The translations under genes were made by a program, and so were the position numbers. 54,175 nucleotides of DNA from contig NZ_VUNM01000015.1 of the NCBI RefSeq assembly GCF_009695655.1, positions 1-54,175 of the forward strand, given 5' to 3'. This document shows, one piece after another, positions 20,258-49,662 of the stretch (the stretch's first letter is position 1; each line of letters opens with the position of its first letter). The notes below the pieces were generated by a model that saw only the letters and a list, made by a program, of their open reading frames with translations, was not told the DNA's origin and ran no database searches. The DNA is from Sharpea porci. Lineage in GTDB: Bacteria; Bacillota_I; Bacilli_A; Erysipelotrichales; Coprobacillaceae.

Positions 20258-20908
20258 TCAAAAGTTTTTTTCTAAATGAAAGGAACGTGTCGCAAGAACA
20301 AGAATTTCTATTGAAGTAGGATGATAAAGACAAATCAGCTCAAGACATTTTTCAAGTGTTGATCCTGATGTAATGACATCATCAAAAAGCAATACCTTCT
20401 TCTTTCTTAAAACATCACCATTCTTAATATCAATGATATCTTTAATCTTCTGACGTCCTTCAAAGCTTTGTTCAGCTTGTTTAAAGGGGGCTTTTTTATA
20501 GAGACCGGTAAAGATATCAGAAGAAAAAGAAGAGGCTATACCCGCAGTAGGTATAAAGCCTCTCTTTTGGTTGGCAATATCATCACTTGGTGCAACGACA
20601 ACGACATGGTTATGAAAATATTGGGAGAGAAAATGATGAAAATTGACAGTAAAAGCGTTTCTTAGCTCGTAATCATATTGCCCCTTATAGCGAAATAACA
20701 GTGTTTGAAAGAAGGCATTATAACGATAAAGAATCGTTATTTTTACGTCATGGAAAAGACCGACATAATGGATCGTCTCAAACTGTGATAAACAGGATGT
20801 ACATAGGGGGGTATCATAAACTAGAGTGAAGAGACTAGGCTCTTTTCTTACTGGTTGGTGACAGATGAGACAGAGAGGTTGTTGAGATAATGGATTGTGG
20901 ATATGCAT
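20258..20908 (-). CDS. comFC: ComFC-type phosphoribosyltransferase-like competence protein
   Basis: ComFC proteins accompany the ComFA helicase in natural transformation. The 216 residues have an N-terminal zinc finger (CLIC at 13-16 and CTSC near 38-41) and a C-terminal type I phosphoribosyltransferase fold with the PRPP loop VLLFDDVITSGST. The start at 20908 has AGGAG 9 nt upstream. It overlaps the end of comFA by 61 nt, far more than the few bases seen elsewhere here, and the zinc-finger cysteines begin within that overlap, so it cannot be avoided by a later start. Confidence 0.9.
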   Translation of the reverse strand: MHIHNPLSQQPLCLICHQPVRKEPSLFTLVYDTPLCTSCLSQFETIHYVGLFHDVKITILYRYNAFFQTLLFRYKGQYDYELRNAFTVNFHHFLSQYFHNHVVVVAPSDDIANQKRGFIPTAGIASSFSSDIFTGLYKKAPFKQAEQSFEGRQKIKDIIDIKNGDVLRKKKVLLFDDVITSGSTLEKCLELICLYHPTSIEILVLATRSFHLEKNF

Positions 20909-21999
20909 TTTTTCATCTCCTGACTGATTGTTTCTGCAATAAAGATCACTTCCCCCTGATAATGTTCCATTGAACGCCCCACCCTTCCTTCGATCTGCAT
21001 AAGCGTACGTTCATCAAAGATTGGATGGGAGGCTTTCATAACAATCACCTGCACATCATCAACAGTGATCCCTCTTTCAAGAATTGTTGTAGTAATGATG
21101 ACATCAAGCTGATGATTTCTCAGCTGATCGATATATTGATTTATATGTGGGGTAGAAGATGAAACGGTCGCACTTCTGACATGCTTTAGTTTATGCTGAT
21201 AATAGGGAAGATCTTCAATGCGTGGCACATAGATCAAGACCACTTTACCTTGATGAATAAATCGCTGTACAATTTGTTTCATTAGCAGCCAATCACATTG
21301 TTTGGGGCATCGTTTAATCACCGGTAAAGGGAGATCATGTTGATGATAACGGCGATTCATAACCAAGACATCTTCGTCATGAATATCACTTGAGATCAGT
21401 GTTGCACTCATCTTGATAAAACAGCGACAATAACATCTGTCAAAGATGGCATTGAGTACTTCATCACCATAAAAAGGAAAAGCATCTGCTTCATCCATAA
21501 GCAGTAAGCCAAAAGGTTTGTCAACATAGCGATAGAGCTGGTGGGCTGTACATATAATAAGAGGGGCTTCTTCATTTATTTTCTTTCCGCCATAAAGACA
21601 ACCAATTGTAATACCATGAATAGCTTTCAACATACGTTCATAAAGTTCTTCCACAAGGGCTTTGCGTGGTAAGGCAAAACATACGCGTTGACCAGAGTTA
21701 ATAACATGGCATATGACTTGATAAGTCATTTCTGTTTTGCCCGAACCACAAACCGCCATAACAAGCGTATTAACCTTGCGTTCATAATTTGCCACAAGCG
21801 CATCAGAGATTTCCTGCTGTCTTTTCGATAAGGTAAACTTGAGTGAATAGGAAGCTTGCATTCCTGAAATATGGACATCCTCCCTTTGTTGTTCATCAAT
21901 GAATACCCGGTTAAACTGAATGCATTTACGACAATAGATACGTCCATGCATTTGTGCAAAGTAGCGTGGGTCCTGATTCCCACAACGAGGACATTTCAT
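20848..21999 (-). CDS. comFA: ComFA-like DNA helicase for competence
   Basis: Superfamily 2 helicase that helps pull single-stranded DNA into the cell during transformation. An N-terminal zinc finger (CPRC at 3-6 and CRKC near 24-27), Walker A AVCGSGKTE, the DEAD box LLMDEADAFPF, motif III MSATL, and motif VI QIEGRVGRS are visible. The start at 21999 is chosen because GGTGG lies just before it and the protein then opens with the zinc finger. A longer frame to 22050 would cut into the repeat array at 22044-22073. Coupled to comFC. Confidence 0.92.
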   Translation of the reverse strand: MKCPRCGNQDPRYFAQMHGRIYCRKCIQFNRVFIDEQQREDVHISGMQASYSLKFTLSKRQQEISDALVANYERKVNTLVMAVCGSGKTEMTYQVICHVINSGQRVCFALPRKALVEELYERMLKAIHGITIGCLYGGKKINEEAPLIICTAHQLYRYVDKPFGLLLMDEADAFPFYGDEVLNAIFDRCYCRCFIKMSATLISSDIHDEDVLVMNRRYHQHDLPLPVIKRCPKQCDWLLMKQIVQRFIHQGKVVLIYVPRIEDLPYYQHKLKHVRSATVSSSTPHINQYIDQLRNHQLDVIITTTILERGITVDDVQVIVMKASHPIFDERTLMQIEGRVGRSMEHYQGEVIFIAETISQEMKKCISTIHYLNNLSVSSVTNQ

Positions 22000-22043
22000 T
22001 TCTACCACCCAAGTACATGATAACGTAAAAAGACCTCCTGAGA

Positions 22044-22073
22044 GTCTCAAAGTTGTCTCAAAAAGGTCTCAAA
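22044..22073 (-). promoter_or_regulatory. Three phased direct repeats upstream of comFA
   Basis: On the minus strand the 8-mer TTTGAGAC occurs three times at an exact 11-bp spacing (plus-strand GTCTCAAA starts at 22044, 22055 and 22066). The array ends about 45 bases before the comFA start codon. Equal spacing of one helix turn is a hallmark of cooperative protein binding, so an operator for comFA-comFC is inferred. TACGTTAT lies between the array and the gene. The same stretch could also fold as a weak terminator (AGACCT/AGGTCT around the repeats) for the ROK gene. Confidence 0.6.
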
Positions 22074-22096
22074 ACACTTATCCTGCACTTTCAAGA

Positions 22097-22990
22097 TTAT
22101 TCGGAGATGAGATGCTGATATAAAGCACCAATAAGATTCGCATCATTATTAAATTGACAATTCACAATTTCTACCTTCGCCCAAGGGAAAGCATATTGTT
22201 GATAATAATGATAAATATCATCATAATTCTTTTGAATGAGTTGAAGTAATAAAGGCTGAACAGAAATGCCACCACCAATTGCCACACGCTCTAAATCCAC
22301 AATCGTATTGATGTTGATAATCTGAATAGCGACTTCCCTAGCAAAAGCATCAATTCCAGCAATGACTTTTTCATCACCATGATTTGCACGTTCAAAGATT
22401 TCAATACCAGAAAGCTGAATCTCTTCACCAAGTGCTTCTTGTACATGTTCCAGCAATCCTTGAATTCCACAACGTGTTGCCCATACATCTTTCACATTTT
22501 TTGGATGATGATAATCGGTCAAGAGACCGCTGACTTCACCAGAAGCAAAATGCTTACCAGGTACGACTTTATGATTCATGACAAGACAACCACCAATACC
22601 TGTACCAAGAACAATCACATAGGCATCATCAACATCCTTCAAAGCTCCATAACCTACTTCAGCATTGGCAGCACATTTTGCATCATTACCAATTGTAATA
22701 GGAACAGGAATATAGGCACTTAATTCTTTCACGAATTCAGTGTTGTTGTAATAGCCTAAGGCACCAGATGTATAAGTATAACCTCTTTCTGGATCAATGG
22801 CACCAGGCATCGAAATAGCCACTCCAGCAACATCATCATAATGTTGATAGATGGATGTCAACGTCTGATAAAGCTCACCTAAGCTTTTTGGTGTAGCAAT
22901 TTTCCCTTTATCAATAAAATGCCGCTCTGCATCCATTAAACCATACTTGATACTACTTCCACCAATATCACATACTACATACTTCTTCAT
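22097..22990 (-). CDS. ROK-family sugar kinase
   Basis: Cytoplasmic ASKHA-fold kinase of 297 residues, likely phosphorylating a hexose or amino sugar. VCDIGGSSIKYG at 5-16 binds ATP phosphate, IGNDAKCAANAE holds the catalytic Asp, and VLGTGIGGCLV is the second phosphate loop. The zinc site CxCGxxGC typical of many ROK proteins is absent: the region reads WATRCGIQGL. The substrate is not determinable. It follows an RpiR regulator by 14 nt and is probably controlled by it. Confidence 0.88.
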   Translation of the reverse strand: MKKYVVCDIGGSSIKYGLMDAERHFIDKGKIATPKSLGELYQTLTSIYQHYDDVAGVAISMPGAIDPERGYTYTSGALGYYNNTEFVKELSAYIPVPITIGNDAKCAANAEVGYGALKDVDDAYVIVLGTGIGGCLVMNHKVVPGKHFASGEVSGLLTDYHHPKNVKDVWATRCGIQGLLEHVQEALGEEIQLSGIEIFERANHGDEKVIAGIDAFAREVAIQIININTIVDLERVAIGGGISVQPLLLQLIQKNYDDIYHYYQQYAFPWAKVEIVNCQFNNDANLIGALYQHLISE

Positions 22991-46754: not shown

Positions 46755-46828
46755 TATTGATACGATCCCCTAAAGGTAGACAGTACAAATACACAAAATG
46801 TACTGCCCTGCTTTCAGGGGGGGTTATT

Positions 46829-47518
46829 ATGGGAAGAAAAGCAAAATATACATTTGAACTGAAACTGAAGGCTGCACAGGATTATCTATCAGGAAAGAAA
46901 TCAGCAGCTGATATTGCCTTTGAATTAGGTATGGGGAAATATGGTGACAACAGAATACGTCAATGGGCGAGTCTCTATAAAGCCAATGGGCAAGAAGCTC
47001 TCAAGCCTAAAGAAAGAAATTCATCTTACTCAAAGGAATTCAAAGATATGGTCGTTCAGGATTATGTACAGAATGGGCTGTCACCGTACGAACTGGCAAC
47101 AAAATACAATATTTCCAGTAAAACAGTCATCGATCAATGGATCAAGCGGTATAATAACCATATAGAGCAGAGGGATTATTGTCCCCATCAGGAGGTCTAT
47201 ATGGCAGAAAGAAAGAAAACAACGAAAAAAGAACGAATGGAGATCGTTCAGTACTGCATCAATCATGGTCGCAATTATAAAGAAACAGCCGCAAAATATG
47301 GCTGCAGCTATTCCCAGGTCTATTCATGGGTACGCAAATATGACAGGCAGGGAACAGATGGCCTGAATGACAATCGCGGACATCGCAAGGCAGAGGAAGA
47401 CCTTACTGATAATGAAAAGCTGGAGAGAGAAAACAAACGACTGAAGGAAGAACTGAGACGAAAAGAAATAGAGGTCAAGTTCTTAAAAAAACTCAGCGAA
47501 TTAGGGAGGGGGCGATAG
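46829..47518 (+). CDS. IS3-family OrfA with three helix-turn-helix domains
   Basis: DNA-binding part of the transposase, 229 residues from the ATG at 46829 (a GGGGGG run precedes it). Three successive helix-turn-helix units lie at about 10-50 (AAQDYLSGKKSAADIAFELGM), 75-110 (VQDYVQNGLSPYELATKYNIS) and 135-175 (IVQYCINHGRNYKETAAKYG). A leucine-zipper-like coiled coil (EKLERENKRLKEELRRKEIE) follows. A seven-A run at 47485-47491 allows -1 slippage into the orfB frame. Confidence 0.88.
   Translation: MGRKAKYTFELKLKAAQDYLSGKKSAADIAFELGMGKYGDNRIRQWASLYKANGQEALKPKERNSSYSKEFKDMVVQDYVQNGLSPYELATKYNISSKTVIDQWIKRYNNHIEQRDYCPHQEVYMAERKKTTKKERMEIVQYCINHGRNYKETAAKYGCSYSQVYSWVRKYDRQGTDGLNDNRGHRKAEEDLTDNEKLERENKRLKEELRRKEIEVKFLKKLSELGRGR
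47485..47491 (+). promoter_or_regulatory. Probable -1 programmed frameshift site of the IS
   Basis: Seven A in the 0-frame arrangement A-AAA-AAA near the end of orfA. After -1 slippage the frame is open through to orfB with no stop, giving the usual OrfAB fusion transposase of IS3 elements. Confidence 0.65.
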
Positions 47519-47547
47519 AGAATGTACCGAAGATTGCCCAGCCAGCA

Positions 47548-48543
47548 TTGCGGCATAGGGTGAAGATACAGATCTATCAATCCGTTCAGGAAACGAGCAG
47601 TGACGAACAATGTTCCATACAGTATCTGTGTCAGCTGGCTGGCATATCCAGGGCATCCTATTATAAATGGATCCATCGCAAGCCATCCAGAGTGGACATA
47701 GAAGATGCAAGGATACTTCCCCTCATACAGGCCATTGCCGATGAAAACAACAGCCTGTTTGGCTATCAGAACATGACCTATGCGCTCAATAATAACAGCG
47801 ATGTGAAGTATAATCGCAAGCGTATCTATCGCATCATGGCCATCAATGGCATAGAATCTCATTTCCGTATTGACCAGCGTCATTCTACGTACAGGAAATC
47901 AACTCCACAGGAAACGAAGGATAACTTACTGGACCGGGATTTCAATGCCGAAGCACCGAATCTGAAATGGGGTACCGACATAACCGAACTGAAATACGCT
48001 GGTGATAAATTATATGTCAGCACGATCCTTGACCTGTATGATCGATATCCGGTTGGCGTTGTCGTCAGCAGAAGAAACGATACCAAGCTGGTCCATGATA
48101 CATACTTCATGGCCATCACCTTGAATCAAGGCGCCACTCCGCTCCTGCACAGCGACAGAGGATTTCAGTACACACGCAAGATATTTTCCAGGATGCTTGA
48201 GAATGACGGACTGACACAATCCATGTCACGGGTTGGCCACTGTATCGATAACGGGCCAGTAGAATCCTTTCAGGGGTTCATCAAGGATATGGCCAAGGTT
48301 CTGTTTGGCAAGGCACATACGTATGAGGAAGCTGCAGAGATCATTTACCGGACATATGAATATTATATCTACAGATATCCACAGAAACGTTTTCATGGGA
48401 AGACTGCGTACCAGGTAAGACAGGAAGCACTGACTGCAAATACACCGGAACAGTATCCAATTGCACCAAACAGAAGAATAGAACGATTCTGGGAAAGGAT
48501 TGAGAAGAGCAAAGCAAAACACCAGGCGCAAGCACAACAATAA
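47548..48543 (+). CDS. IS3-family OrfB integrase (DDE transposase)
   Basis: Catalytic part of the transposase, 331 residues if counted from the TTG at 47548; the natural product is probably the OrfAB frameshift fusion, since no good ribosome site precedes that TTG. An HTH_21 region (NNSLFGYQNMTYALNNN...YNRKRIYRIMAINGI) leads into an integrase core with the DDE triad: Asp in WGTDITELKY, Asp in LLHSDRGFQYT, Glu in GPVESFQGFIK. Intact. Confidence 0.92.
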   Translation: MRHRVKIQIYQSVQETSSDEQCSIQYLCQLAGISRASYYKWIHRKPSRVDIEDARILPLIQAIADENNSLFGYQNMTYALNNNSDVKYNRKRIYRIMAINGIESHFRIDQRHSTYRKSTPQETKDNLLDRDFNAEAPNLKWGTDITELKYAGDKLYVSTILDLYDRYPVGVVVSRRNDTKLVHDTYFMAITLNQGATPLLHSDRGFQYTRKIFSRMLENDGLTQSMSRVGHCIDNGPVESFQGFIKDMAKVLFGKAHTYEEAAEIIYRTYEYYIYRYPQKRFHGKTAYQVRQEALTANTPEQYPIAPNRRIERFWERIEKSKAKHQAQAQQ

Positions 48544-48644: not shown

Positions 48645-48674
48645 TAAAAAAAGAAGTAGATGAGTCCTACTTCT
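48645..48674 (-). terminator. Terminator after the WYL regulator gene
   Basis: Minus strand stem AGAAGTAG/CTACTTCT, 7-nt loop, then seven T. The stop codon (48667-48669) is in the stem. Confidence 0.88.
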
Positions 48675-49662
48675 GATAAAGTGATAAAGCTTTCTTTAAG
48701 TCCTGTTCAATTTCTTCTTTAAGCGTTATTGGCTCATCGACATGAACATTAGCTCCCTGCATCAAGAACCACATTTTAAGTCCATCATTCATTAAGACAT
48801 GATCAACTGATGCCTGATACCAGTCTTCTTTGAGTTTCTTGACAGCGATTGTATGGCCAAAACGCGATACAACCTCTCTTAAAAGCACCCCTTTAAAACT
48901 GAAAGTCAGCTGCACTTCTTCCCCACTCGCAAACATATGGAATCTCTTTGTAATAAAGCCAGCAAGGTCATATTGATCTTGAATATCGACATATACCCCT
49001 CCTATTCTTCTTACATAACGCATACGGTCAATACGATACATGGATAGGTTAGTTTTACGTTTAGAGAAGTAACCTATAAGATAATAATGGTTATTATCGA
49101 GATAAATACGATAAGGAGAGACATTATAGTCTTCCTTAGTCTTACCATTACCATTCTTTGATGTGATTTCTACAGGATGGTAATTTGAGATGGCATAATC
49201 AATGTAATTAAAGGTAATATTCTTATGTTCATCAATGGCATGGAGGATGGTGGTGAGGTTAAGGATGAGTGAAAAGGGCTGTTCTGTTTTTAGTAAGGGC
49301 ATCATGGAAAGACGTTCTTTCTGATAGATGGATGAGAAGCTAAGAAGCTTTTTAAGCAAAGCTTCTTTTTCTTTGGCTGAAGCATCTTTGTTGAAAAGAA
49401 TGGCATCGACAAGAAGCTGTAATTCACCATCTTCGTAATATTCATTCTCAATAACATAACCCCTTTTGGGTTTACCATGTATTAATGGATAACCAAGAAA
49501 GAGAGTAAAGAAGTCATTCATATCATGAACAAGCTCCCCTACTTCCTTACGATGGCTTTTTAACCCATGTTCTTTCAAGTAATTCACAATTTCTTCGTTC
49601 TTAATACCAATTTTTCGACTTGTCAAAAGTAATTGTAAAATCAAAGCCATCTTTTCACCCAT
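48667..49662 (-). CDS. WYL-domain transcriptional regulator
   Basis: A 331-residue protein: an N-terminal DNA-binding helix-turn-helix (about 5-60, LLTSRKIGIKNEEIVNYLKEHG), a long middle region, and a WYL domain near 145-225 (ITFNYIDYAISNYHPVEI...VSPYRIYLDNNHYYLIGYFSKRK) with a WCX-like C-terminus. WYL proteins bind nucleic acid fragments or nucleotides as ligands and often control phage defence, DNA damage or CRISPR genes. It follows the 193-aa gene by 11 nt with an AGGAGG ribosome site. Confidence 0.85.
   Translation of the reverse strand: MGEKMALILQLLLTSRKIGIKNEEIVNYLKEHGLKSHRKEVGELVHDMNDFFTLFLGYPLIHGKPKRGYVIENEYYEDGELQLLVDAILFNKDASAKEKEALLKKLLSFSSIYQKERLSMMPLLKTEQPFSLILNLTTILHAIDEHKNITFNYIDYAISNYHPVEITSKNGNGKTKEDYNVSPYRIYLDNNHYYLIGYFSKRKTNLSMYRIDRMRYVRRIGGVYVDIQDQYDLAGFITKRFHMFASGEEVQLTFSFKGVLLREVVSRFGHTIAVKKLKEDWYQASVDHVLMNDGLKMWFLMQGANVHVDEPITLKEEIEQDLKKALSLYQK

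Follow-up and report, generated by a model that had tools for sequence, protein, structure and literature searches.

A conserved repeat array with 11-bp phase upstream of comFA in Sharpea porci and its relatives as probable operator of a putative activator

Introduction

In Sharpea porci, the DNA-uptake helicase gene comFA is preceded by three copies of one octamer, which succeed each other every 11 bp. Do these repeats form an operator, which type of regulator could bind there, and does the array govern competence genes in general? The analysed window, i.e. the whole stretch of 54,175 nucleotides of contig NZ_VUNM01000015.1, had previously been subjected to a sequence-only reading, in which the array was proposed as a candidate operator of a late-competence regulator. 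The literature searched contained nothing relevant on the word TTGAGAC, on competence in Erysipelotrichia or on this group of genera.

Results

Three exact repeats precede the predicted comFA promoter

The word TTTGAGAC occurs three times on the minus strand between positions 22073 and 22044 upstream of comFA, each time as an exact match and with a period of 11 bp. The TTGAGAC units of repeat 1 (22066..22073, minus strand), repeat 2 (22055..22062, minus strand) and repeat 3 (22044..22051, minus strand) are located at approximately -62, -51 and -40 relative to the inferred start site, respectively. The minus-strand sequence across the array region is TTTGAGACCTTTTTGAGACAACTTTGAGACTCTCAGGAGGTCTTTTTACGTTATCATGTACTTGGGTGGTAGAAATG. 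When up to 3 mismatches were allowed, the three-copy pattern had a single match in the window and none in 100 dinucleotide shuffles, confirming the direct repeats and their phase as originally described, while the lone TTTGAGAC word is unremarkable (5 matches in the window versus 2.8 expected). At up to one mismatch, the two-copy pattern detected a single site in the 2.5-Mb genome, namely this array, and the control yielded 0 matches. With two mismatches 14–16 matches were obtained, which is scarcely above the 9 matches of the control, and none of the further sites appeared promoter-like upon inspection. The array is also present in the genome of a sister species of Sharpea. No known RNA family matched at 21900–22200. 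A mobile repeat was ruled out, as the genome contains no further copy of the region upstream of comFA.

The comFA gene (20848..21999, minus strand; 383 aa; Pfam DEAD/ResIII/Helicase_C), whose product is 89% identical to ComFA of Sharpea azabuensis DSM 18934, overlaps at its end with comFC (20258..20908, minus strand), for which NCBIfam TIGR00201 (comF) is the best match, albeit under its curated cut-off. Both genes are presumed to form one operon. Judged from the alignment, the ATG at 21999–21997 appears to be the better supported start codon of comFA, because ~30 relatives align from MKCPRCGN; the listed TTG start at 22050 falls within repeat 3. A predicted Shine-Dalgarno sequence, GGGTGG (22005..22010, minus strand), is located 5 nt upstream of the ATG, with the inferred start site nearby, and in most relatives this position is occupied by GGGTGATG. 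Repeat 3 ends 44 bases before the ATG, in agreement with the distance of about 45 bases given initially. Exactly 22 nt past the TTGAGA of repeat 3 follows a predicted -10 box, TATCAT (22017..22022, minus strand). Hence, the predicted Sharpea comFA promoter reads TTGAGA-N22-TATCAT, which is an exact fit to the geometry described below for the family. Elsewhere in the window, two adjoining ORFs at 46757–48543 resemble an IS3-type transposase pair when their translations are inspected by eye, and a 331-aa ORF at 48667–49662 has the look of a WYL-type regulator.

A hairpin makes second use of the array in Sharpea

Upstream of the array and on the same strand as comFA lies a gene for a ROK-family sugar kinase (22097..22990, minus strand; Pfam ROK E = 1e-35). 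A hairpin followed by a T run (22027..22070, minus strand; -16 kcal/mol, z approximately -2 to -3) overlaps the array and is a candidate intrinsic terminator of this gene. Its stem (22070–22056/22043–22030) comprises 14 pairs closing a 12-nt loop, the upper 5' arm coincides with repeat 2, and a TTTTT stretch is present at 22031–22027. A simple terminator scan, in which loops were limited to 8 nt, had missed this 12-nt-loop structure.

Could the repeats be a mere by-product of this terminator rather than an operator? In Sharpea, all features of an intrinsic terminator are present, i.e. a GC-containing hairpin with a T run just past a gene, 27 nt beyond the ROK stop codon. The sister species keeps the stem-loop; its stem differs at one position only, where U-A replaces a U-G pair. 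However, the arrays of other genera retain the TTGAGAC phase and the 22-nt spacer behind various upstream genes but showed no such hairpin, and a terminator has no need for three copies of one word. The hairpin therefore does not explain the repeats, and we regard this origin as very improbable. Rather, the hairpin probably represents a second use of the array bases in Sharpea. If comFA transcription starts near 22010, the structure would lie outside the comFA mRNA and thus serve the ROK transcript.

The array and its distance to the -10 box are conserved at comFA

To assess conservation, 29 comFA upstream regions of the family were used, which had been selected without regard to repeats. Pairs of TTGAGAC-like units were scored at spacings of 8 to 15 (maximum score 14). 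Scores of at least 12 were reached at spacing 11 in 7 of the 29 regions but in only 0–2 regions at any other spacing, and in 0.12% of the shuffles. When one unit was scored together with a -10 box at spacers of 14 to 30, the mean peaked with 12.97 at 22 nt and was at most 9.96 elsewhere. Anchoring of the last unit through the 22-nt spacer succeeded in 24 of the 29 sequences, representing 14 genera. In these, the mean unit score was 4.71 out of 7 at position -11, 4.38 at -22 and 3.46 at -33, compared to a background of 1.86. The promoter-proximal unit, corresponding to repeat 3 in Sharpea, is the best-conserved copy and is kept at comFA throughout the 14 genera. The five comFA regions in which the anchored pattern was not seen are those of genera g9, g16 and g17 and one low-scoring sequence of g14. 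At the other extreme, one comFA region of genus g12 contains six or seven units in phase. In family f2, no comFA array was recognized by eye among 15 regions inspected. Conservation in related species, proposed earlier as a check of the array, is thus observed, both the 11-bp phase and the fixed distance of 22 nt to the -10 box being preserved.

Array promoters possess a -10 box at fixed distance and lack a -35 box

Scanning 43 genomes of the family for the exact pair yielded 17 matches versus 0 for the reversed control, and a slightly fuller pattern with one mismatch yielded 87 versus 4. A 21-base pattern, searched with 3 mismatches in two g12 genomes, matched 35 times (control: 0). At the level of the class, the fuller pattern was detected in 7 of 395 genomes and the control produced 0 matches; therefore, the array is largely confined to this family, apart from outliers. 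The 13 exact array matches in IMG/VR viral contigs are near chance expectation.

The arrays hold between 2 and 6 or 7 copies of a unit with the consensus TTGAGACAAAT. In the last unit, TTGAGAC is 92–100% conserved per position, a value to be read with the fact that the arrays were picked by that word. For 46 of 71 distinct arrays the best -10 box is found exactly at N22 and for 6 at N21, whereas 2.75 are expected at N22 when the downstream sequence is shuffled; the 71 arrays are not wholly independent, because some are orthologous promoters of related species. The -10 box is TATAAT-like, and an extended -10 motif (TGn) is carried by 28 of the 48 arrays with a clear -10 box. A -35 box with at least 3 matches is present in 6 of these 48 arrays, which is no better than in shuffled sequences (~9.4 expected). 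A ComX/SigH-type -10 box (CGAATA-like) was not found at comFA.

As A/T tracts recur every 11 bp in the consensus unit TTGAGACAAAT, the array might simply act as phased AAATTT/T-tract DNA, bending the promoter and enhancing its activity without a specific protein. Yet TTGAGAC is the most conserved part, although the arrays were chosen by that word, and in the comFA set, whose members did not have to contain the word, GAGAC persists and the A/T tracts differ (CTTTT, AACTT, CGAAC). Intrinsic bending is thus most improbable as the function of the array.

Rather, the array is likely to be the operator of a sequence-specific activator that binds head-to-tail and acts in a class-II-type manner. The main argument for an activator is provided by the fixed distance to the -10 box in conjunction with the missing -35 box. 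A row of protomers, one per 11-bp turn, would occupy a single face of the DNA from approximately -62 to -34, and in some relatives this row would reach -73 or beyond. The last protomer would take the position of sigma region 4 and thereby recruit RNA polymerase to a promoter with a -10 box but no usable -35 box. In Sharpea, the activator would drive comFA-comFC. The initial suggestion of a regulator bound on one face of the DNA is consistent with these data: the array behaves like an operator with regard to conservation at comFA, the 11-bp phase and the fixed 22 nt.

A damage-responsive repressor, i.e. a LexA-like S24 protein governing an SOS-type regulon, was considered as the alternative owner of the operator. 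Typical members of SOS regulons are found among the array-bearing genes, such as ruvAB, ssb and the genes for small toxin-like peptides and Rpn-like nucleases, and XRE-S24 proteins are encoded in most of the 43 family genomes. LexA itself was not found over the TIGR00498 cut-off in these genomes, which contain XRE-S24 proteins only. The fixed N22 and the missing -35 box suit an activator but not a repressor, and the upstream regions of S24 genes that were inspected are devoid of the array. We therefore consider an SOS operator quite unlikely. Six XRE-S24 upstream regions, belonging to HdiR-like S24 genes, contain repeated AAGACAC/GTGTCTT words, which likely constitute an autoregulatory operator distinct from the array.

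Relationship to known tandem operators

The geometry of the array invites comparison with that of PhoB, which binds head to tail to tandem direct repeats one turn apart. Indeed, a period of 10–11 bp, as is characteristic for OmpR/PhoB-type regulators, is found here, with 11 standing out among spacings of 8–15, and the array shares tandem direct repeats one turn apart and the presumable head-to-tail occupancy with PhoB, PhoP and WalR sites. It differs in the word, the consensus being TGTWAH for WalR and CTGTCAT for PhoB (PMC4168254), and in its distance to the -10 box, which is longer by about one turn. In streptococci, the OmpR/PhoB-type response regulator CiaR recognizes TTTAAG-N5-TTTAAG (PMC3091779, PMC6560143), likewise a hexamer direct repeat of period 11 upstream of the -10 box. 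The array reads TTTGAG-N5-TTTGAG and thus differs at its fourth base (G for A). Moreover, the last CiaR hexamer is 10 nt away from the -10 box as compared to 23 nt for the array, a difference of about one turn, and the array comprises 2 to 6 or 7 copies. Accordingly, the distance of ~10–11 nt between the last repeat and the -10 box, as seen for CiaR and PhoB, is not found here, where it is 22 nt. A winged-helix regulator of OmpR/PhoB type is our first guess, to which we give somewhat less than an even chance.

A second possibility, raised already by the sequence-only reading, is that the unit represents a LytTR-type half-site and that the true site consists of copies 22 bp apart, i.e. the first and the third, as in the box of ComE. 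In Streptococcus pneumoniae, the LytTR protein ComE binds repeats about two turns apart whose end lies 42 nt upstream of the start site, and it controls the gene of the SigH/ComX-type competence sigma factor (PMC6560143). The right half-site of ComE, ACADTTGAGR (PMC6560143), resembles the array unit AAAYTTGAGAC over the stretch AAAYTTGAGA, alternate copies of the array are indeed 22 bp apart, and at comFA of genera g4, g6, g19 and g12 the copy at -22 is retained better than that at -11. Averaged across genera, however, conservation of the -11 copy equals or exceeds that of the -22 copy (4.71 versus 4.38), and therefore contiguous head-to-tail binding fits better. In addition, in many arrays only the -11 copy is clear. 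The array fills every turn and its last copy ends ~34 nt before the inferred start site, nearer than the ComE box. While the spacing noted earlier and the likeness to the half-site are real, a ComE-like 22-bp site is unlikely, and a LytTR protein ranks as second guess for the regulator with a correspondingly small chance. The binding of MraZ to direct repeats made it a further candidate, which was rejected by inference, as no array was seen before mraZ.

The array precedes genes for DNA uptake, recombination and a SigH-like sigma factor

Besides comFA, which carries the array in most genera, targets include ruvAB-comEA-comEC, ssb, a SigH-like sigma gene behind rlmB, genes for Rpn-like nucleases and small hydrophobic peptides, metK and hisS as well as a DUF4250 gene with an ilvA-like gene and an ABC transporter. 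For metK, hisS, DUF4250-ilvA and the ABC transporter no obvious link to competence is apparent. In genera g12 and g4 and in genome G014, the array is located before ruvA-ruvB-comEA-comEC. The genes ruvB, comEA and comEC are contiguous in g12, whereas in g4 the comEA-comEC pair is ~3 kb away from the array with other sequence in between. The ssb array of G055, a genome of family f2 and thus from outside the family, has four copies and keeps N22. In such relatives, the same promoter type would drive ruvAB-comEA-comEC, ssb and further genes.

The array is also found before rlmB and the SigH-like sigma gene in many genera. It recurs at rlmB of G055 and at rlmB of G358, the latter a member of another family and order of the class and with a sigma-like ORF behind rlmB. 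This array ends just upstream of the ATG, so that the N22 position corresponds to an xACAAT box within the first codons; the site must therefore act through a promoter inside the gene or in some other way. If the box is a promoter, the transcript would skip rlmB and serve the sigma gene behind, but another mode may apply. At six loci, including G000:C3:39589-40902, a divergent SigH-like sigma gene was observed directly downstream of rlmB, with NF006147 and TIGR02859 as best matches far under their cut-offs. Apart from this gene, there are no transcription factor genes among the array-bearing genes.

The Rpn-like nucleases were named by eye, and a 90-aa stretch that was tried had no Pfam match above the cut-off. 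The small hydrophobic peptides exhibit weak similarity to Fst and Ldr. In three genomes of genus g12, Rpn-like nuclease genes are present in many copies, several of which have an array promoter of their own. At seven loci, array promoters are followed by short transcripts with a Shine-Dalgarno hairpin (e.g. CCTCCTTGAAAGGAGGTGG) and tiny ORFs, which look like type I toxin mRNAs. At four further loci, a conserved ORF of 41–46 aa is present between the array promoter and metK, one of which has a weak FlhC-like match.

The competence role has limits

The search for arrays upstream of other competence genes gave a mixed picture. They are present before comEA (via ruvAB) and ssb in some relatives, while no array was detected in the comGA operons examined or, in Sharpea, before the ruvAB-comEA operon and comGA. 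The rlmB gene of Sharpea has a degenerate trace composed of two weak units at spacing 10. Since comFA is the only gene with a clear array in Sharpea, there is no regulon to speak of in this organism. The assumption of a late-competence operator consequently holds in part: the array behaves as the operator of a regulator and is found at comFA, ruvAB-comEA-comEC, ssb and the operon of the SigH-like factor in relatives, but it is not a general late-competence operator, given its absence from comGA and from ruvAB-comEA in Sharpea and its many targets elsewhere that are not competence genes.

In eight comGA upstream regions from several genera, a conserved AAAGAAAAAT is followed after ~11–14 nt by GCGTATATATA or GCGAATAA and then by TAGGAGG-n5-ATG. 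By its sequence, this element looks like a SigH/ComX-type promoter; it is absent in Sharpea. The element would fit a second tier driven by a SigH-like factor.

Discussion

The array at comFA is probably the docking site of a putative activator that turns on DNA-uptake and recombination genes, and its distribution suggests that comFA, ruvAB-comEA-comEC, ssb and the gene of the SigH-like sigma factor are subject to one common input. SigH activates com genes in Lactobacillus sakei (PMC3364868). The SigH/ComX-driven competence systems of Lactobacillus sakei, Staphylococcus and Listeria resemble the present case in that a SigH-like gene resides beside rlmB and that comGA has a SigH-like promoter in several genera; here, however, the sigma operon and comFA appear to have one activator operator in common. 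No array of this kind was found for SigH/ComX competence in the literature searched.

We tentatively propose, while holding the combined scenario to be rather less probable than not, that a new activator uses tandem 11-bp operators at 22 nt from -35-less promoters to control a regulon for DNA uptake and recombination, in Erysipelotrichales as well as in one or more further orders, and that it ranks above a SigH-like sigma factor driving comGA. As part of the same scenario and by analogy, this may amount to a two-tier competence cascade that resembles ComE-ComX while using another regulator and another operator.

The literature searched included no publication on how competence is controlled in this group of gut bacteria. 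An operator conserved in its exact geometry offers a handle to fish out the regulator and to predict its regulon genome by genome, and a possible use may be to switch on DNA uptake in strains that are not yet transformable.
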